From positions 1,922,001-1,986,000 of the forward strand of contig NC_014761.1 in NCBI RefSeq assembly GCF_000183745.1: a stretch of DNA of 64,000 nucleotides, written 5' to 3'. The stretch is from Oceanithermus profundus DSM 14977 (lineage in GTDB: Bacteria > Deinococcota > Deinococci > Deinococcales > Marinithermaceae). A program made the translations under genes and the position numbers. This document shows, piece after piece, positions 28,901 to 36,992 of the stretch (position 1 is the stretch's first letter; every line of letters starts with the position of its first letter). The notes beneath the pieces are model-generated. The model was not told the DNA's origin. It searched no databases and saw nothing but the letters and a program-made list of their open reading frames with translations.

Positions 28901-29938
28901 TTGAAACAGGTTCTGTTTCTGCGTCTCTGCGCCGGGATTTTGCTCCGGGCGGCGGGGCTGGTGTTGTGGCTGGGCGCGCTTGCGGCCTGTGCCCAGGCTC
29001 CGCCGCACGAGGGTAAGGCTCAGCCGGAAACGGGGTTGCACATCTTCACCCTGGAGCACGATAGGCAGGAGCGGCGCTACGCGCTCTACGTGCCCGCGCA
29101 GGCGGGCGAGGCTCCACTGCCGCTCGTCTTCTCGCTGCACGGCGGCGGGGTGGTGCTGGAAGACCAGCTGGGCACGCGCTACAAGAGCCCCTTCAAGCTG
29201 TGGATGGACCTCGCCGACCGCGAAGGGTTCTATGTCGTCTACCCCGAGGGGCTGCCCGGGGCCTACGGCAAGCCCACCTGGAACGACTGCCGCGCCGACT
29301 GCACGGTGAGCTCGAGCGCCGACGACGTCGGCTTCCTGCTGCAGATCCTGGAGGAGGTGGCCGCCGAACACCCCACCGACCGCCGCCGCGTCTACGCCTC
29401 GGGGATGTCCAACGGCGGCTTCATGGCCCTGCGCCTGGCGGTAGAGGCGCCGGACACCTTCGCCGCGGTGGCCGCGATCGGCGCGGCCATGCCGGCGGTG
29501 AGCGGCTGCGGCGCGCCCCGGTGCCCGCTGCCGGTGCTCTTCATGAACGGCACCGCCGACCGTTACATGCCCTACGGCGGCGGCACCCTCAGCAACCCGC
29601 CAAAGGCGAGCCACGGCACCGCGATGAGCACCCCCGACTCGGTGGCGCTCTGGGCCGACCTCGCCGGGGCCCGCGCCGAAGCGCCGGTGCATTACCCCGA
29701 CCTCGACCCCGACGACGGCGGGACGGTCACCCGGCGCGACCACACCGCCGGCGGCCGCGTCTGGGTGCGGCTCTACACCGTGGGCGGCGGCGGGCACGCC
29801 GCCCCCAGCCTGCGCGAGCGCTATTCGGCGCTCTTCGAACGCTACTTCGGCCACCAGAACCACGACATCGAGGCGGTGGAAGAGATCTGGCGCTTCTTCC
29901 GGGCGGCGGCGCCGGCTCAGGGCCCCGCGGGCAGATAG
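28901..29938 (+). CDS. Secreted polyhydroxybutyrate depolymerase/feruloyl esterase-like lipoprotein (LpqC family)
   Basis: A 345-residue alpha/beta hydrolase exported as a probable lipoprotein (lipobox LGALAAC at about residues 24-30). PLVFSLHGGG is the oxyanion loop, YASGMSNGGFMAL the nucleophile elbow, MNGTADRYMPY the aspartate and GGGGHAAPS the histidine. This is the LpqC/PHB depolymerase group. It probably cleaves polymer or phenolic esters outside the cell; substrate unknown. The TTG start is supported by TAGGCT-N7 upstream and by the reading of a complete signal peptide. Its 3' end overlaps the convergent lipoprotein gene by 22 bp. Confidence 0.85.
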   Translation: MKQVLFLRLCAGILLRAAGLVLWLGALAACAQAPPHEGKAQPETGLHIFTLEHDRQERRYALYVPAQAGEAPLPLVFSLHGGGVVLEDQLGTRYKSPFKLWMDLADREGFYVVYPEGLPGAYGKPTWNDCRADCTVSSSADDVGFLLQILEEVAAEHPTDRRRVYASGMSNGGFMALRLAVEAPDTFAAVAAIGAAMPAVSGCGAPRCPLPVLFMNGTADRYMPYGGGTLSNPPKASHGTAMSTPDSVALWADLAGARAEAPVHYPDLDPDDGGTVTRRDHTAGGRVWVRLYTVGGGGHAAPSLRERYSALFERYFGHQNHDIEAVEEIWRFFRAAAPAQGPAGR

Positions 29939-30894
29939 GCGATCGCGCGCGCCTGGGCGCCGGCGAGCCGGTAGTGCTCGGCGAGGTTGGGGTCCAGCAG
30001 GTCCAGCACCAGCAGCCGGCCCGGCCCCACCAGGTAGGCGTAGTCGTCGGGGGTGATCACGGCGTCGCGGAAGTCGCCGGAGCGCAGGAGGTCGTCCTGA
30101 CCGCTGCGCCGCAGGGCGTAGCCCGAGTCGGCCGCCACCAGCCAGCCCGCGGGAAGGGGGCGGATCCAGCGCAGGCCCGAGAGGGCGAGCGCGGGCCCGC
30201 GGTAGACCGGAGCGTCGCTGCTGCCGGCCTCCCAGGTGTAGAGCACGACGTCCGAGAGCCGGTCGACGGCGATCCCCAGGCGCTGCTGCCGGTCCCAGTC
30301 CGCCGTGAGCGCCTCCACGGTGACCAGGCCCGCGACCTCGTGTTCGATCGGGTCTCCGGGGGGGTCGGGGTAGACGAGGGTGAACTTCTGCAGCCCCGGC
30401 CGCAGCCGCACCACGCGGTCGTCGGGGCCGAGCAGGTAGCGGGTGCCCTCGGGGTCGCCGCTGCGGTCCACGGGTTCGAGCGCCGGGTTCGCCAGCGCCA
30501 CCGTCCAGACGCCGGAGGCCCCGCAGTCGACGAGCAGGTGGTTCTCGCCGACCCGCAGCCCCCCGTCCGCGCAGACGACGCCCAACGGCAGCTCTACCTC
30601 GGGCGGAGCCGGATCCGGCGCCCGGTCGACCTGTGCCCCGCCCACCGGGTAGGCCCGCAGCGCGTCGGGCGCCAGGACCCAAAGCCGGGTGTCCCCGGGG
30701 GGGCGGGCGAGGTCCTGCACCGTGACGCCCAGATCCCAATCCCCCAGGGCGGCGGCGGGCTCGGTCCCCGCGGGGTAGAAGACGACCCGCTCCCCCTCGC
30801 CCACCGCGAGCAGCAGCTCGAGCGGGGGCTCCTGGGTTCCGGTGCAGGCGGCGATCAGCCACAACAACGCGGCAAGTCCCCAAAGTCGCTTCAT
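29917..30894 (-). CDS. Unknown lipoprotein coupled to lptD
   Basis: A 325-residue lipoprotein (MKRLWGLAALLWLIAACTG, lipobox LIAAC). The mature part shows repeated short beta-strand units with aspartate and glycine turns (TRLWVLAPDALRAYPVGG, ENHLLVDCGASGVWTVAL, DYAYLVGPGRLLVLDLL), suggesting a beta-propeller. The ATG overlaps the lptD stop (ATGA), so it is the fourth gene of the lpt operon. LptD needs a lipoprotein plug, LptE, in proteobacteria. This protein is longer and not similar in sequence, but it occupies the right place for a partner. That role is inference only. Confidence 0.78.
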   Translation of the reverse strand: MKRLWGLAALLWLIAACTGTQEPPLELLLAVGEGERVVFYPAGTEPAAALGDWDLGVTVQDLARPPGDTRLWVLAPDALRAYPVGGAQVDRAPDPAPPEVELPLGVVCADGGLRVGENHLLVDCGASGVWTVALANPALEPVDRSGDPEGTRYLLGPDDRVVRLRPGLQKFTLVYPDPPGDPIEHEVAGLVTVEALTADWDRQQRLGIAVDRLSDVVLYTWEAGSSDAPVYRGPALALSGLRWIRPLPAGWLVAADSGYALRRSGQDDLLRSGDFRDAVITPDDYAYLVGPGRLLVLDLLDPNLAEHYRLAGAQARAIAYLPAGP

Positions 30895-33497
30895 AATCCC
30901 CCCTCCCAGGGCATGCGGATGCCGCTTTCGTCGAAGAGGAAGCGCGCGCTCTGATCGCCGTAGAGGAAGGCGATCCGCGCCGAGGGCGCCGCCGCGTCCA
31001 GGGTGAAGCGCAGCGCCCAGCAGCAGCGGTCGAGGGTGACGACGAAGCGGGGCTGGAGCGGCGGCCAGCCCTCCGAGGTGCGCACCTCCTGGGTCAGCAG
31101 CGCGCTCAGGTAGAGGCGGGTGTTCTCCTCACCGCGCCAGCCCAGGGTGAACCCGAAGTCCTTGAACGAGAGCTTGCGGTCGTCCGCGGCGTACCGGGCG
31201 TACTCGAACCCGCCCTGCACGCTCAGCGCCGGCCAGGTGTCGCCGCCGGACCAGACGTCGAACCCCCCTTTGATCGAGGCCTCTTCGAGGTAGACCTCCT
31301 CGTCGCCGGTCTCGGGGAGGTGCCAGGCGGCGCTCACGTTCCAGGTGCTCCTCAGGTCGGCGAAGCGGGAGCCGAACCGCAGGGAGCCGGGGCCGAAGCG
31401 CCCCTGCGCCCCGTCCCAGCGCTCCAGGAGGGTGAGGCGGTGCTCCTTCCAGGCCGCGGTGAAGGTGAGCTGGTGGTCGCGGAAGTTCGGGTCGCCGGGG
31501 TCGTCGGTGAAGAACGAGGTGTGGTCGAGCCGCACCGAGAAGGGCCCCCACCCGGCGCCGATCCGCCCGTTCAGGCGCCGGCCGTCGTGGTCGTAGGTCT
31601 CGCTCAGGCTGTAGCGCGCGCCTCCGGGGCGCAGCTCGAAGGCGGCGCGGGTCTCCCGCGGCCGGCCCTGGTTGAGGTCGCGTTTGTGGGTCAGGCTCAG
31701 GTTGCCGCCGGGGAGCGCGTAGCTCGCCCGCAGCAGCAGGTCGTCGTAGGCCGCGTCCGGGTAACGGTAGCCGCTCTGGGCGCTCGCCGCGAGGTCGCCC
31801 AGGCGCAGGCTTAGCCGGCCGGTGGTGGCCTGGTGCCGCCCCGCCTGCGGGTCGTAGAGGTGGTCGAGCTTCAGGGTCAGCGGCCCCGGCCGCGCCTCGA
31901 GCCCGGCCTTGAGGGGCGCGTAGACGGCCTGCTCGAGGTCGCGCCCTCCCGAAGCGGTGAGCACGAGCCCGGGCAGCACGCTCCAGCGCGAGCTGGCCTT
32001 GAAGTCGAGCTTGCGTTCGGGGCGGATGTAGTCGCGGGCGAAGAAGGCCTCGCCCTCCGCCACCCGCCGTTCGAGCCGCGCCTCCACCCGCAGCCCCCCG
32101 AGCGTCTGCGACGCCCGCAGGGTGCTGCGCCAGTCGACCTGGCGTTCGCCGGTGTCGTAGTACCAGCCCTTGAAGCGGTTTTCCGCGCTCAGGCGGAACC
32201 CCTTCCACGGCGGTGAGGGCCGGAAGACGTCGAGGTGGTCTACGTAGATCCGCCCGGCGCTGGCCCAGACCCCGGCGGCGCGCGCCGAGCGGTTGAGCTC
32301 GTTGGTGCGGTCGAAGTACCCGCCCGCGTAGAGGCTGCCCTTGACGCTGAATCCGCCGCCGCTCCAGCCCCGCGTCCAGCGCAGCACCATCTCGGGGACG
32401 GTCCGCGCCGCCGGCGGCCCCGCCTCGCCCAGGTCGAGGTAGGTCTGCAGCCGGAACTCGGCGCGCGGCTCCTCCCGCCCCAGGGCGCGGCTGCTCAGCT
32501 TGAGGCGCACCCGCCCCGAGGCGGTGTTCTCGCGCCGCTCCAGGCTGAGCTCGTGCCGCCAGCCGTCCTCCTTGAGCCGGTACTCGGCCTTGAGGCTCCA
32601 TCGCGGCGGCTCCGCGGCCTGGTCGGCGCTCGTCCACTTGAAGGCGGTGGCCTGGTAGAAGGGCAGGTCGCGCAGGTTCTTGTCGCCCATGCGGTAGTCG
32701 AGCTGGGCTTCGAGGGTGCCGCGGTCGGCGCCCACCTCGGGCGGCAGGTAGAGGGCGCGGTAGTGCTCATACGCCGCGCCCGCCCCCCAGTGGTCCACCC
32801 CCAGACCCCAACCGCGGTTCTGGAACCAGCGCAGCAGCGTGAACCCCAGGCCGCCGCGCGTCACGTAGGGCAGGTCGGCGCTCACGAACCAGCCGTCGGT
32901 GGGGTCGCTGCCCACCTCGACCCGCGGCCGCCGTTCGGAGAAGTGCAACAGCAGCACCGGCCAGTAGAAGGTCACCTCGCCCCGGGTGTAGACGGTCACG
33001 TCGTAGGCCACCAGGCGGTCGCCGGGGTAGAGGATCACCTTGCGCGCCTTGAAGCTGTAGTCGTAGGGGTCCTGGCCGCAGCGCGCGCAGGGGGTGAACT
33101 CCCCCTGGGTCAGGAGGATCTGGCCCATCACGCGGGTCGCCTCGGGGCCCCACAGGTCGATGCCGCCGCTTTGGATGTGCACCTCCAGGGCGTCGAGGCT
33201 CTCGTCGTCGAGGTAGAGCTCCAGGTAATCGGCCTCGGTGACCCGCCCCTCTGCGTCCTGGTAGTAGACCTGGCCGATCAGGATCAGGCGCCGTGCCGAA
33301 CGGTCGTACTCCACCCGGTCGGCGCGCACCTCCTCGCCCTTCTCCAGTTCGAGGATGACCGGAGCGCCCACCAGCACCACCAGCTCGCTGTCGCCCACCT
33401 TGCGCAGCTCGAGCCGGTCGGCCTGGGTCACCTCGATCCGCCCCGCCAGCGCCCACCCCGCCAGCAGCACGACCAGCGCCCAGACCCCCGCCCTCAC
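30891..33497 (-). CDS. lptD: LptD/OstA-like outer membrane assembly protein
   Basis: An 868-residue exported protein. After a signal peptide (GVWALVVLLAGWALAG) comes an OstA/LptA-like beta-jellyroll (about residues 20-180: VTQADRLELRK, GAPVILELEKGEEVRADRVEYD, GRVTEADYLELYLDDE). The remaining roughly 680 residues alternate short amphipathic strands and turns, as in a large beta-barrel. The GTG at 33497 overlaps the stop of the upstream permease gene (GTGA). In proteobacteria LptD inserts lipopolysaccharide into the outer membrane. Thermaceae are reported to lack lipid A, so the cargo here is open. A longer upstream frame is rejected because it runs through lptG. Confidence 0.85.
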   Translation of the reverse strand: MRAGVWALVVLLAGWALAGRIEVTQADRLELRKVGDSELVVLVGAPVILELEKGEEVRADRVEYDRSARRLILIGQVYYQDAEGRVTEADYLELYLDDESLDALEVHIQSGGIDLWGPEATRVMGQILLTQGEFTPCARCGQDPYDYSFKARKVILYPGDRLVAYDVTVYTRGEVTFYWPVLLLHFSERRPRVEVGSDPTDGWFVSADLPYVTRGGLGFTLLRWFQNRGWGLGVDHWGAGAAYEHYRALYLPPEVGADRGTLEAQLDYRMGDKNLRDLPFYQATAFKWTSADQAAEPPRWSLKAEYRLKEDGWRHELSLERRENTASGRVRLKLSSRALGREEPRAEFRLQTYLDLGEAGPPAARTVPEMVLRWTRGWSGGGFSVKGSLYAGGYFDRTNELNRSARAAGVWASAGRIYVDHLDVFRPSPPWKGFRLSAENRFKGWYYDTGERQVDWRSTLRASQTLGGLRVEARLERRVAEGEAFFARDYIRPERKLDFKASSRWSVLPGLVLTASGGRDLEQAVYAPLKAGLEARPGPLTLKLDHLYDPQAGRHQATTGRLSLRLGDLAASAQSGYRYPDAAYDDLLLRASYALPGGNLSLTHKRDLNQGRPRETRAAFELRPGGARYSLSETYDHDGRRLNGRIGAGWGPFSVRLDHTSFFTDDPGDPNFRDHQLTFTAAWKEHRLTLLERWDGAQGRFGPGSLRFGSRFADLRSTWNVSAAWHLPETGDEEVYLEEASIKGGFDVWSGGDTWPALSVQGGFEYARYAADDRKLSFKDFGFTLGWRGEENTRLYLSALLTQEVRTSEGWPPLQPRFVVTLDRCCWALRFTLDAAAPSARIAFLYGDQSARFLFDESGIRMPWEGGL

Positions 33498-34534
33498 CGC
33501 TTGCCCCCAAGCAGGAGCAGGCCCGCCACCCCCGCGTAGAGCAGGTCCGGCCCCCAGGCGGCGAACCATGGGGCGAGCACCCCCTGTTCGCCCATGATCC
33601 GGAAGACGCTCCAGGTCGCGTAGTAGAAGAAGGTCAGCGTCACCACGCCCACCATGCCCAGGCTGCGGCTGCCGCCCAGCATCCAAAACGCCAGGGCCAC
33701 CGCGAAGAGCGCGAAGGCCACGCTCGCCGCCGGCTCGGCCCACTTGCGCCAGTAGGCCGTGGCCTCGGCGTGGTAGGGCCGGCCGAACTTCTTGTACTCG
33801 GCGATGCGGCGGCGCAGTTCGGCCAGCGGCAGGTCCGCGGGTTTGGTCGGCGGGCTCACCGCCAGGTCCTCGAGCGGCAGCAGCCCCCGCTCGAACTCGG
33901 TGATCGTGCGCGGGCGGGAACCGTCGAAGGTCACGCGCATTCCTGCGTCGAGCACCAACCGCCCCGGCTCGAAGCGTCCGCGCTTGGCCGTCAGCACCTC
34001 GCCTTCCGAGAGCACCCGCACGTCGCCGAACCCCTGCCCGTCCACCTGCCCCACGTAGATCGTGCGGCCGTAGGCGTCGCGGAAGAAGGTCCCCGGCTGC
34101 AGCAACGCCCGCGGCTTGGCCAGGATCGCCTCCCGCAGCACCTGGTTGGCCCGCTGCAACTCGCGCGGCACCCAGCTCTCCCCGGCCACGAAGCCCACGA
34201 GCGCCAGCAGCGCTCCAAAACCGACGAGTACCCCCAGCACCCGCTCCCGGGGGATCCCCGAAGCGAGCAGCACCTTGAGCTCCGAGTCCTCGGCCATGCG
34301 GCTGAGCGCCAGCAGCAACGCGAACAGGTAGGCGATGGGCAGGCCCCGCACCAGCGCCTCGGGCACCCGGTGGGCCAGGTACTGCCCGATCGAAAGGGGG
34401 TCGGCGCCGCGCGCCAAGAGCGGAGCCAGCACCTCGAAGAGCACCCCGCCGAGCAACAGGAGGACGACCACGGCCAGCCCCCCGAGCAGGTAGGCCCCCA
34501 CCTCGCGCAGCAGGTAGCGGCTCAGGGTGTTCAC
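33494..34534 (-). CDS. lptG: LptF/LptG-family permease
   Basis: A 346-residue protein of the YjgP/YjgQ family: two membrane helices at the N-terminus (LLREVGAYLLGGLAVVVLLLLGG; a second at about 55-75), the coupling region ALSRMAEDSELKVLLASGIP, a periplasmic beta-jellyroll (about 130-240) and three C-terminal helices. It should work with the second permease and an LptB ATPase encoded elsewhere to extract a lipid from the inner membrane. ATGA overlap with the upstream gene and GTGA overlap with lptD. Whether it is LptG or LptF is by order only. Confidence 0.9.
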   Translation of the reverse strand: MNTLSRYLLREVGAYLLGGLAVVVLLLLGGVLFEVLAPLLARGADPLSIGQYLAHRVPEALVRGLPIAYLFALLLALSRMAEDSELKVLLASGIPRERVLGVLVGFGALLALVGFVAGESWVPRELQRANQVLREAILAKPRALLQPGTFFRDAYGRTIYVGQVDGQGFGDVRVLSEGEVLTAKRGRFEPGRLVLDAGMRVTFDGSRPRTITEFERGLLPLEDLAVSPPTKPADLPLAELRRRIAEYKKFGRPYHAEATAYWRKWAEPAASVAFALFAVALAFWMLGGSRSLGMVGVVTLTFFYYATWSVFRIMGEQGVLAPWFAAWGPDLLYAGVAGLLLLGGKR

Positions 34535-35538
34535 AGCAGCCTCCGTGTGCCCGCGAGGGCCAGCGCGAAGTAGACCACGTCGGCCAGCCAGGCGCCGTAG
34601 GGCCCCACCACCGCGAACCGCGCCAGCTGCGCCGCCAGCGTCCAGAGCACGTAGTAGCCGAAGATCAGCAGCACCACGGCCACGAAGGCCCAGGCGGCCT
34701 CACGCAGCGAAAGCCCCACCACCGCCGCCAGCCAGGCGAGCGCGATCACCCCCACGGCGTCGGCGTGCCGGCGCTGCAGCGGGAAACGGGCCTGGGGGTC
34801 CACCTTGGCGAGCTCGCGCAGCTCGGCCATGGGCAGCGACTCGTAGGTCGTCTTCTTCTCGACGAAGCGGGAGGGGAAGGGCAGCGGGATCGTCTCCCAA
34901 AACTCGGGGCGCGCCCCCGGCGCCGTCTTCCAGGCGTTCTTGAGCACCCAGTTGGCGTCCTTCCAGACCCCCTCGTCGGCGCTCCAGACCGCGCCGTCGG
35001 GGGTGACCACGCGCACCCCCTGAAGGCGGCCGCCCCCGGCGTCGTCGGGGTAGACGCGGCGCGCGTAGTAGACCCCGAGCCCCTGAGGGGCGTAAGCGGC
35101 GTTGGTGAGCACGCCGCTGGGGGCGTGCCCGTAGTAGATCTCGTAGATCAGGTCGTCGTAGCGCGCCTGGGCCTCGGGTTTGACCCAGCCGGCGTTGACC
35201 CAGGCGACTGCCGCCACGAAGGCCGCCAGGCCCAACACCGGTGCGAGCAGCCGCACGGGTGCGATGCCCGCGGCGTAGACGGCCTTGAGCTCGGAGTCGC
35301 GGATCCAGCGGGCCAGCGCCACCAGCACCGCGAAGACGAGGCCCAGCGGCAGCGCCACCCCCAGGGTGTAGGGCATGCGGTAGAGCACCAGCTCCCCGAC
35401 CTGGGTCCAGGTCGTGCCGCGGCTGAGGAAGACCCCCGAGAGCGACGAGAGCAGGTCGGTGGTCACGAGCCCGATGAAGAGCAGGGTTCCCAGCAGGTAG
35501 GGCGTCAGGATCTCGCGCAGCAGGTAGCGCTGGAGCAC
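34531..35538 (-). CDS. lptF: LptF/LptG-family permease, first gene of the lpt operon
   Basis: A 335-residue paralogue of the next gene, with the same layout: MLQRYLLREILTPYLLGTLLFIGL, VALARWIRDSELKAVYAAGIAP, a periplasmic domain containing GVYYARRVYPDDAGGGRLQGV, and C-terminal helices. The GTG at 35538 follows TATAAT (35545-35550) by exactly 6 nt, the clearest leaderless promoter in the window. It starts a four-gene operon in which each junction is a 4-bp overlap. Confidence 0.9.
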   Translation of the reverse strand: MLQRYLLREILTPYLLGTLLFIGLVTTDLLSSLSGVFLSRGTTWTQVGELVLYRMPYTLGVALPLGLVFAVLVALARWIRDSELKAVYAAGIAPVRLLAPVLGLAAFVAAVAWVNAGWVKPEAQARYDDLIYEIYYGHAPSGVLTNAAYAPQGLGVYYARRVYPDDAGGGRLQGVRVVTPDGAVWSADEGVWKDANWVLKNAWKTAPGARPEFWETIPLPFPSRFVEKKTTYESLPMAELRELAKVDPQARFPLQRRHADAVGVIALAWLAAVVGLSLREAAWAFVAVVLLIFGYYVLWTLAAQLARFAVVGPYGAWLADVVYFALALAGTRRLL

Positions 35539-35544
35539 GAAAAA

Positions 35545-35550
35545 ATTATA
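35545..35550 (-). promoter_or_regulatory. Leaderless promoter of the lpt operon (TATAAT-N6-GTG)
   Basis: A consensus TATAAT followed by TTTTTC and the GTG start of lptF. No -35 of standard sequence is seen. Confidence 0.7.
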
Positions 35551-35594: not shown

Positions 35595-35623
35595 TAAAAA
35601 CAAAAAGCGGGCCGCAGCCCGCT
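35595..35623 (-). terminator. tRNA-Arg terminator
   Basis: On the minus strand a 7-bp stem (AGCGGGC / GCCCGCT, 4-nt loop) is followed by TTTTTGTTTTT. It lies just past the tRNA 3' end and before the lptF promoter. Confidence 0.9.
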
Positions 35624-35626
35624 CGC

Positions 35627-35703
35627 TGGTGCGCCCGGCAGGAATCGAACCTGCGACCTAGCGCTTAGGAGGCGCTTGCTCTATCCGACTGAGCTACGGG
35701 CGC
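35627..35703 (-). tRNA. tRNA-Arg (anticodon CCT)
   Basis: Minus-strand cloverleaf of 77 nt with encoded CCA. Acceptor GCGCCCG pairs with CGGGCGC; the D arm carries AGCTCAGTCGGATAGAGC; the anticodon loop CTCCTAA sits on a GCGC stem; the T arm is GCAGGTTCGATTCCTGC. It reads AGG codons. TAGAAT at 35715-35720 is the probable -10, 11 nt upstream. Confidence 0.95.
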
Positions 35704-35746
35704 CCGCGAGGGAAATTCTAGCACGGCAGCGCATAGGGCGCCTTGT

Positions 35747-36235
35747 CATCCCGGACGGGCCCTGCTTTTTCCCGTCTCCCCGGACGAGCCCCGCCACGTT
35801 TCGTCACCCCGGACGAGTCTGCATTTTTCCCGTCATCCCGGACGAGCCCCGGAGGGGCGAGATCCGGGATCTCGGAGGTGCTGTTTACGAAACGTGCTCG
35901 GTTGCCCCTGCACGTACGGAAGTTCCGGGGGCCCGCCCTATTTCTTCACCCCGAACGAGCCCCCCTGTTTCGTCACCCCGGACGAGCGAAGCAGGATCCG
36001 GGGCCTGCCCTGGACGAGATCCGGGGCCTGCCCTGGACGAGATTCAAGGTCTCGCCATTGCCGACAACGAAGGCGTCCGGTGACCCCTGCCCGCCGCGAG
36101 GTTCCGGATCGCGGGAGCCTCGCGGCTCCCTTGTCCGGAACGACGAAATGTTTTCTTGCCCACCTTCGTCGCCCCGGACGAGCGGGGCGAGATCCGGGGC
36201 CTGTCCCGGACTTGATCCGGGATCTCGCGGTGGCC
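35747..36235. repeat. Field of degenerate palindromic repeats with CCCGGACGAG core
   Basis: About ten copies of a core related to CCCCGGACGAG occur in some 490 bp, starting near 35750, 35778, 35807, 35837, 35948, 35976, 36008, 36031, 36172 and 36204. Fuller copies (for example 35834-35875) are palindromic: ATCCCGGACGAG pairs with an inverted AGATCCGGGAT after a GC-rich loop. Spacing is irregular and some copies are truncated, so this is not a CRISPR array. It resembles REP-type intergenic palindromes. All long open frames here are repeat artefacts. Confidence 0.75.
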
Positions 36236-36293
36236 CGCCGCCCGAACGGCGAAGGCCGGAGCCCGCAGGGGCCGCAGCCGGACCGCGGCCGGC

Positions 36294-36992
36294 TCACGCC
36301 CGGCGAAAGCGGCGTTGCCGCTCCGGGTCCAGTTTCTCGGTGGCGTAACGGAGCATCGTCCGCGGCATGCGGGCGGCGTTTTCCTCGAGAAACGCGAGCA
36401 GGGTCTCCTCGTCGCGCTTCCCTACCTCGCGCAGCATCCAACCCGCCGCCTTGTGGATCAGGTCTTCCGGATCGTCCAGCAGCCGCCGGACCAGGCGCAG
36501 GGTGGGCGCGTACGCGCCCCGGCGGATGAAGTGAAAGGTGGCCATCACCGCGACCCGGCGTTCCCAAAGCGAGGGCGAGGCGGCCAGCCGGTCGAGCAGC
36601 GAGCGGTCGCGGCCTTCCAGGTACGGCCCCAGGATGTGCGGGGCGCTGGCGTCGACAAGGTCCCAGTGGTTGACGCGGTCCAGGTTCCGCAGGTACATCT
36701 CCGCAACCGCCGCGCGCGCCGCCGGGTCACCGCGGCGGAAACGGTCCACGAGCAACAACAGGGCCAGCAGGCGCGCCTCGTGGAAGGGCGAGCCGAGCAG
36801 GTGCTCGACCTCGGAAAGGGGGAGTTCGCGGAAGCGCCGCACCCGCCCGCGCAGCACCGGAACGCGGATCCCCAGGAAGCGGTCGCCCTCGGCGTACTGC
36901 CCCGGGCCCGCCTTGAAGTAGCGCCGGGCGTGGGCGGCGGCACCGGGGTCGCCCAACGCTTCCAGCTCGCGCGCTACGTCCGCGGCGCGCAC
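36294..36992 (-). CDS. AlkD-like DNA alkylation repair protein
   Basis: A 232-residue all-helical HEAT-like repeat protein. RYFKAGPGQYAEGDRFLGIRVPVLR, VNHWDLVDASAPHILG, SPSLWERRVAVMATFHFIRRG and LIHKAAGWMLREVGKRD are typical of the AlkD DNA glycosylase family, which removes bulky or N3/N7-alkylated bases without base flipping. The GTG at 36992 lies 2 bp past the DsrE-like stop, so the two genes are co-transcribed. An upstream extension fuses it falsely with the DsrE frame. Confidence 0.9.
   Translation of the reverse strand: MRAADVARELEALGDPGAAAHARRYFKAGPGQYAEGDRFLGIRVPVLRGRVRRFRELPLSEVEHLLGSPFHEARLLALLLLVDRFRRGDPAARAAVAEMYLRNLDRVNHWDLVDASAPHILGPYLEGRDRSLLDRLAASPSLWERRVAVMATFHFIRRGAYAPTLRLVRRLLDDPEDLIHKAAGWMLREVGKRDEETLLAFLEENAARMPRTMLRYATEKLDPERQRRFRRA

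Follow-up and report, generated by a model that had tools for sequence, protein, structure and literature searches.

A predicted beta-propeller lipoprotein encoded directly after a divergent LptD in Oceanithermus profundus and other Deinococcota

The operon and the linkage of its last gene to lptD

We analyzed a 64,000-nucleotide stretch of Oceanithermus profundus DNA (contig NC_014761.1; G000:C2:1922001-1986000), called the window below, in which an operon encodes two permeases resembling LptF and LptG, a divergent LptD, and a lipoprotein that lies immediately after LptD and does not resemble LptE, the lipoprotein partner of LptD in proteobacteria. Numbered from the first letter of the window, the features of this locus were as follows.

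34531..35538, minus strand: lptF-like permease gene (GTG start, 335 aa; PF03739 LptF_LptG, E 9e-55)
33494..34534, minus strand: lptG-like permease gene (GTG start, 346 aa; PF03739 LptF_LptG, E 2.7e-72)
30891..33497, minus strand: divergent lptD gene (GTG start, 868 aa; assigned by Foldseek, cysteine pattern, and conserved lptF-lptG-lptD order)
29917..30894, minus strand: lipoprotein gene (ATG start, 325 aa; lipobox; predicted seven-bladed beta-propeller)
35539..35550, minus strand: leaderless promoter (TATAAT at 35550-35545, 6 nt, then the lptF GTG)
35605..35624, minus strand: terminator-like hairpin at the end of the upstream tRNA-Arg unit
35627..35703, minus strand: tRNA-Arg (CCT), upstream, the 5' boundary of the operon

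The sequence confirmed a four-gene lpt operon joined by 4-bp overlaps, all on the minus strand, as an earlier sequence-only reading had described it. The letters of two of the overlaps were also as described, with lptG and lptD sharing GTGA (33497-33494) and lptD and the lipoprotein gene sharing ATGA (30894-30891), but the overlap of lptF with lptG was GTGA (34534-34531) and not ATGA. The reading frames of lptD and the lipoprotein gene do not merge into a single frame. For the lptF product, the top NCBIfam model was LptF, with a score under the equivalog cut-off. The leaderless TATAAT promoter proposed for the operon was upheld by two close relatives, in which both this element and its exact spacing to the lptF GTG were kept despite differing flanks. 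A generic scan for sigma-70 promoters detected none that has a -35 box, as expected for a leaderless start with only a -10 element.

Linkage of the lipoprotein gene to lptD was followed through 111 Deinococcota genomes, among which Deinococcus itself has not been established. LptD was detected in 106 genomes and the lipoprotein in 99, all of which carried LptD; the lipoprotein never occurred without LptD, and several of the genomes with LptD only held LptD fragments at a contig end. Wherever the two genes shared a contig (95 genomes), the lipoprotein gene directly followed lptD in the same orientation, and the other 4 pairs were on different contigs. A lack of the lipoprotein gene beside lptD in relatives, which the sequence-only reading had named as a refutation, was thus not borne out, and the adjacency in 95 genomes places this layout far beyond chance. 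In two genomes of family f2, lptFG did not adjoin lptD, yet the lipoprotein gene still followed it, and the same was found in a third f2 genome, G022, in which lptFG was not beside lptD and a contig end left little upstream sequence. The lipoprotein gene therefore travels with lptD and not with the permeases. In G021, it was relocated to another contig (L145:3144-4457) with its CTGS anchor intact, which offers a natural test of unlinked lipoprotein function. Two near-complete genomes, G025 (91%) and G106 (96%), had neither LptD nor the lipoprotein detected; G025 retains LpxC.

The lipoprotein family and the divergent LptD

The lipoprotein carries a canonical lipobox (LIAA/C, lipid Cys17), giving the mature N-terminus CTGTQEP. 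The mature protein of 309 residues was predicted to be a beta-propeller (mean pLDDT 94.9, pTM 0.92) of about 27 strands, and its best structural matches were seven-bladed. With this model, Foldseek returned 505 PDB chains (E<=0.001), with propellers ranked at the top (best TM 0.73, 11% identity); mLST8 and 1ri6 were the best of these, and the neighbors included the vitamin B12 lipoprotein BT2095. None of the 55 family members searched matched any Pfam family, that of the PQQ/BamB-like eight-bladed propellers included, the profile of the family matched no PDB sequence, and the LptM motif PF13627 gave no match at E 0.1. A role as a lactonase or other enzyme was set aside, given fold matches of only about 11-13% identity and the lack of a family match. 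No homology to LptE (PF04390) was found in the lipoprotein, and its predicted fold is a propeller and not that of LptE, in agreement with the earlier statement that the two proteins look nothing alike. LptE itself was found in 0 of 61 genomes by a search that detected the E. coli, Caulobacter, and Bacteroides controls.

The lipoproteins of Thermaceae/Marinithermaceae-like and Trueperaceae-like genomes could be aligned along most of the chain (hhalign 97.6%, E 3.3e-12), and by sequence comparison the lipoproteins across the phylum form a single homologous family. A lipoprotein beginning with C[TSE]G[TS] started beside the lptD stop in 55 of 57 LptD loci; the script used for this count required the lipid-Cys motif, and a motif-free scan gave the same proteins. 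At the other two loci, the G022 gene was a divergent homologue in place (E 1.6e-9), and the G021 gene was the relocated one. The lipidated N-terminus, C-T-G-[TS]-x-E, was the most conserved segment of the protein, with a mean conservation of 0.81 for mature residues 1-6 versus 0.37 for the remainder. A C[TS]G[ST] start was found in none of 26 other lipoproteins, a small background set drawn from three genomes and the loci, and on the same small set we discarded the idea that CTG[TS] arises from a signal for lipoprotein sorting in general. A second conserved feature was the cysteine pair Cys108/Cys124 (precursor numbering), present at 98% in each column.

The identity of the 868-aa protein as LptD required several lines of evidence. 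Pfam LptD (PF04453) matched neither this protein nor anything else in the genome, NCBIfam gave no match for it, and no LptD homologue was found on plasmids. When its profile was searched against PDB sequences, only marginal LptA/LptD matches were obtained (E 0.07-0.18), and hhalign against the single E. coli LptD sequence was weak (probability 7.8%, E 0.0045); these two comparisons are insufficient alone to prove LptD. A structural model was then used, made with AlphaFold2 from 52 relatives (mean pLDDT 87.6, pTM 0.49), and the best 33 PDB matches to it in Foldseek were all LptD (top E 7e-18 over about 770 columns, TM 0.2-0.3). The protein contains Cys137 in GEFTPC, Cys140, and Cys825/Cys826 in DRCCWALR. 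GEFTPC137 aligns with GSFTSC of E. coli LptD, which ends in C173, and the C-terminal pair corresponds to C724/C725 in SSCCYAIR. Of 57 loci examined, 56 carry a CC[WY] motif near the C-terminus and one, G013, has ACW instead; the CxxC was seen in nearly all of the loci with a complete N-terminal half. This cysteine pattern settles the identity better than a fold search with TM values of 0.2-0.3. The order lptF-lptG-lptD was kept in all families except f2. On the basis of the fold search, the cysteine pattern, and the gene order, we call this protein LptD and regard it as a divergent homologue outside Pfam family PF04453, on a branch too distant for that profile to reach.

The model of this LptD contains approximately 39-40 barrel strands in all, with about 38 between the beta-taco and the CC turn versus 24 in E. 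coli, and its loops alternate between short and long in a roughly meander-like way. A simple alternation predictor of strands, calibrated with six E. coli barrels that have 14-22 strands and do not include LptD, gave 21-27 strands for E. coli LptD (true value 26), 32-36 for O. profundus LptD, and a mean of 37 (standard deviation 4) for the 52 relatives. Together, these predictions suggest a barrel of approximately 37-40 strands instead of 26. To our knowledge, the largest single-chain barrel is that of SprA, with 36 strands. By standard geometry, we estimate a backbone diameter near 70 Å for 38-40 strands and about 46 Å for 26 strands if circular, so that in principle the former could fit a propeller of about 45-50 Å and the latter could not. 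An enlarged LptD barrel would explain a partner much bigger than LptE.

Other parts of the Lpt bridge were located elsewhere on the same contig. LptB was identified at G000:C2:1325736-1326449 (327.7 bits, over the 240-bit cut-off), and two LptA-like genes and a small gene overlap at approximately 1,070.7-1,073.2 kb of G000:C2. The product of the small gene had no Pfam match and resembles LptC by eye, making it a possible LptC. The second LptA-like protein (L134:6754-7746) has a CVNC motif near its N-terminus, which is seemingly unusual for LptA and possibly related to the CxxC of LptD.

Lipid A genes and the candidate cargo

The sequence-only reading had taken this lineage to lack lipid A, which held for the O. 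profundus genus and a Thermus-like genus but not for the phylum. No LpxC or LpxB was found in any of the six genomes of the O. profundus genus, and LpxC was also missing from two further genera, g2 and the Thermus-like g6, and throughout family f2. Conversely, LpxC was present in the Marinithermus-like genome G007 of the same family as O. profundus, the Meiothermus-like genus g12, most of family f3, and all four f5 genomes (the labels Thermus-like, Meiothermus-like, and Marinithermus-like are guessed); the genomes with LpxC include Truepera-like ones. LpxB-like matches were weak and followed largely the same split; the genome-level search misses the one in G007. In that genome, a cluster beside mreB (L152:8414-15147) consists of lpxD, lpxC, a Gfo/Idh oxidoreductase gene, fabZ, lpxA, an LpxB-like gene, and what by eye is an ABC exporter gene. 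The presence of the oxidoreductase hints at a possible lipid A variant with a 2,3-diamino sugar. The literature agrees that the ancestor of the phylum had lipopolysaccharide (LPS), which some members have since lost (PMC5007114).

The lptFGD genes and the lipoprotein gene were retained in genomes both with and without lpx genes, indicating that this machine is not tied to lipid A. For the same reason, we rejected the idea that the lipoprotein compensates for the loss of lipid A, as genomes with lpx genes carry it too. One family includes species with and without lpx genes that share the same exit machine, which provides a natural contrast. Since O. profundus has neither LpxC nor LpxB, its cargo cannot be ordinary lipid A. 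Its polar lipids are reported to comprise three phospholipids without any glycolipid, and the main one resembles the N-acetylglucosamine (GlcNAc) phosphoglycolipid of Thermus and Meiothermus (PMC3111992). By elimination, a GlcNAc-containing phosphoglycolipid is the best candidate for the cargo in O. profundus, with a chance that we place a little short of even. With only three polar lipids reported, the cargo of an Lpt bridge without lipid A is directly testable in this organism.

Borrelia has a documented Lpt bridge without LPS, and Thermus is mentioned as another case (PMC10353723), so that this aspect alone is not new. The Borrelia burgdorferi system resembles the one described here in that an LptD-containing bridge operates in an LPS-less diderm with no identified LptE and a glycolipid as its proposed cargo. 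It differs in that no partner lipoprotein has been reported there and in that Borrelia LptD is without cysteines (PMC10353723), whereas the Deinococcota LptD keeps four.

Possible roles of the lipoprotein

We consider it probable that this operon encodes LptF/LptG permeases, an LptD exit, and a dedicated LptD partner that replaces LptE in Deinococcota, in a bridge not tied to lipid A. That the lipoprotein is a specific partner of LptD is very likely, and physical contact between the two is presumed; that its role is LptE-like, in assembly and/or as a plug, is favored by a slight margin. The order of translation and the 4-bp overlaps would yield the partner together with LptD, and its acylated N-terminus would anchor it. 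The probable docking site of the C-T-G-[TS]-x-E segment is the lateral gate of LptD with the hinge between beta-taco and barrel, as it is for the conserved N-terminus of LptM in E. coli. The propeller could then cap or plug the periplasmic mouth of an enlarged barrel, or support the beta-taco, and could help LptD to fold and assist the oxidation of its four cysteines, while the bridge would deliver a lipid other than lipid A. In E. coli, LptE-assisted maturation joins the LptD cysteines (PMC12644819, PMC10353723), and the LptD described here retains cysteines matching these.

The system shares with proteobacterial LptD-LptE the LptF, LptG, and LptD homologues, the beta-taco and barrel, the FTxC and CC[YW] cysteines, and a presumed lipoprotein partner. 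Unlike in that system, the partner is a predicted beta-propeller and not an LptE fold, the barrel apparently has about 37-40 strands versus 26, the N-terminal cysteines form a CxxC where proteobacteria have C31/C173, and in O. profundus lptFGD and the partner gene lie in one operon in a genome with no lipid A genes.

The strongest alternative, to which we give appreciable but clearly lesser weight, is that the lipoprotein assists LptD from the periplasmic side, as LptY does at the beta-taco or BamB does for BamA, and serves assembly or bridge stability without replacing LptE, with the LptD of this phylum requiring no plug. BamB provides a precedent as a beta-propeller lipoprotein that serves a beta-barrel machine of the outer membrane, although the lipoprotein described here has about seven blades versus eight, lacks a PQQ/BamB Pfam match, and is linked to LptD and not BamA. 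LptM and LptY (YedD) of E. coli are likewise outer-membrane lipoproteins of LptD, LptM being conserved right after its lipid Cys, and LptY, which has a conserved cysteine pair as the lipoprotein does, binds the beta-taco beside the interdomain disulfides (PMC12644819). No sequence relation to either was found, and the partner described here is a predicted propeller of about 310 aa with no LptE alongside, versus a short protein and a lipocalin-like barrel. Borrelia LptD, which has no identifiable LptE (PMC10353723), is consistent with an LptD that needs no such partner. However, LptY is dispensable in E. coli (PMC12644819), whereas nearly every sampled genome has the lipoprotein gene, usually abutting or overlapping lptD, and the highest conservation of the lipoprotein is at its lipid-proximal N-terminus, which is closer to LptM than to LptY.

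It is improbable that the lipoprotein is no translocon subunit and instead has the exported lipid as its target, which it would bind, modify, or sense, its gene being only cotranscribed with lptD. Its Foldseek neighbors do include 1ri6, whose fold is enzyme-like, and propellers that bind ligands, BT2095 among them, but it is only about 11% identical to any solved propeller, belongs to no Pfam enzyme family, has few invariant polar residues with no obvious active site among them, and is kept in genomes with and without lpx genes, whose cargo should differ. Most unlikely of all is that the adjacency reflects phylogenetic inertia of a fast-evolving lipoprotein of unrelated function in a conserved operon, as the low conservation of its body (about 0.37 per column) might suggest, because the pair persists where lptFG is not adjacent, the lipoprotein never occurs without LptD and is retained after relocation, and its anchor motif is nearly invariant.

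Several points weigh against the reading of the lipoprotein as a partner that replaces LptE. A shared pathway can account for conserved gene order and co-occurrence without any contact, and the body of the lipoprotein is fast-evolving, with no ligand or interface surface found. The pTM of the LptD model makes its global shape unreliable, and the propeller is far larger than LptE, which makes a literal lumen plug doubtful unless the barrel is truly enlarged. The lipid assignment of O. profundus comes from an old description and rests on chromatographic mobility and staining. We regard as speculative and rather unlikely the extended model of a second "barrel and plug" exit type, in which a predicted LptD barrel of about 38-40 strands would be sealed by a seven-bladed propeller lipoprotein instead of LptE and would serve a cargo other than lipid A in lineages without lpx genes.

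A survey reported that lptD and lptE are never found in these atypical diderms (PMC8871954), and we found no description of a Deinococcota LptD or of its propeller partner in the literature searched; subscription-journal papers were outside that scope, and a prior description is possible. In the sampled Deinococcota, a divergent LptD is nearly universal and is accompanied by an unrelated candidate partner of its own, which fills a gap in the account of how lipid export could be completed in these bacteria.

Three further features were noted. Convergent with the operon, a plus-strand gene at 28901-29938 overlaps the lipoprotein gene by 22 bp at its 3' end; its product has a lipobox of its own (LAAC/AQAPP) and reads like a poly(hydroxyalkanoate)/feruloyl esterase. 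The intergenic region at 35740-36350, near the tRNA-Arg locus, yields spurious translations that repeat RTSPP and PGLDPGSR-like motifs, which suggests dispersed short repeats. Finally, a DdrB homologue was found on an O. profundus plasmid (G000:C1:41100-41477, 172 bits) and not in the other genomes of the genus.

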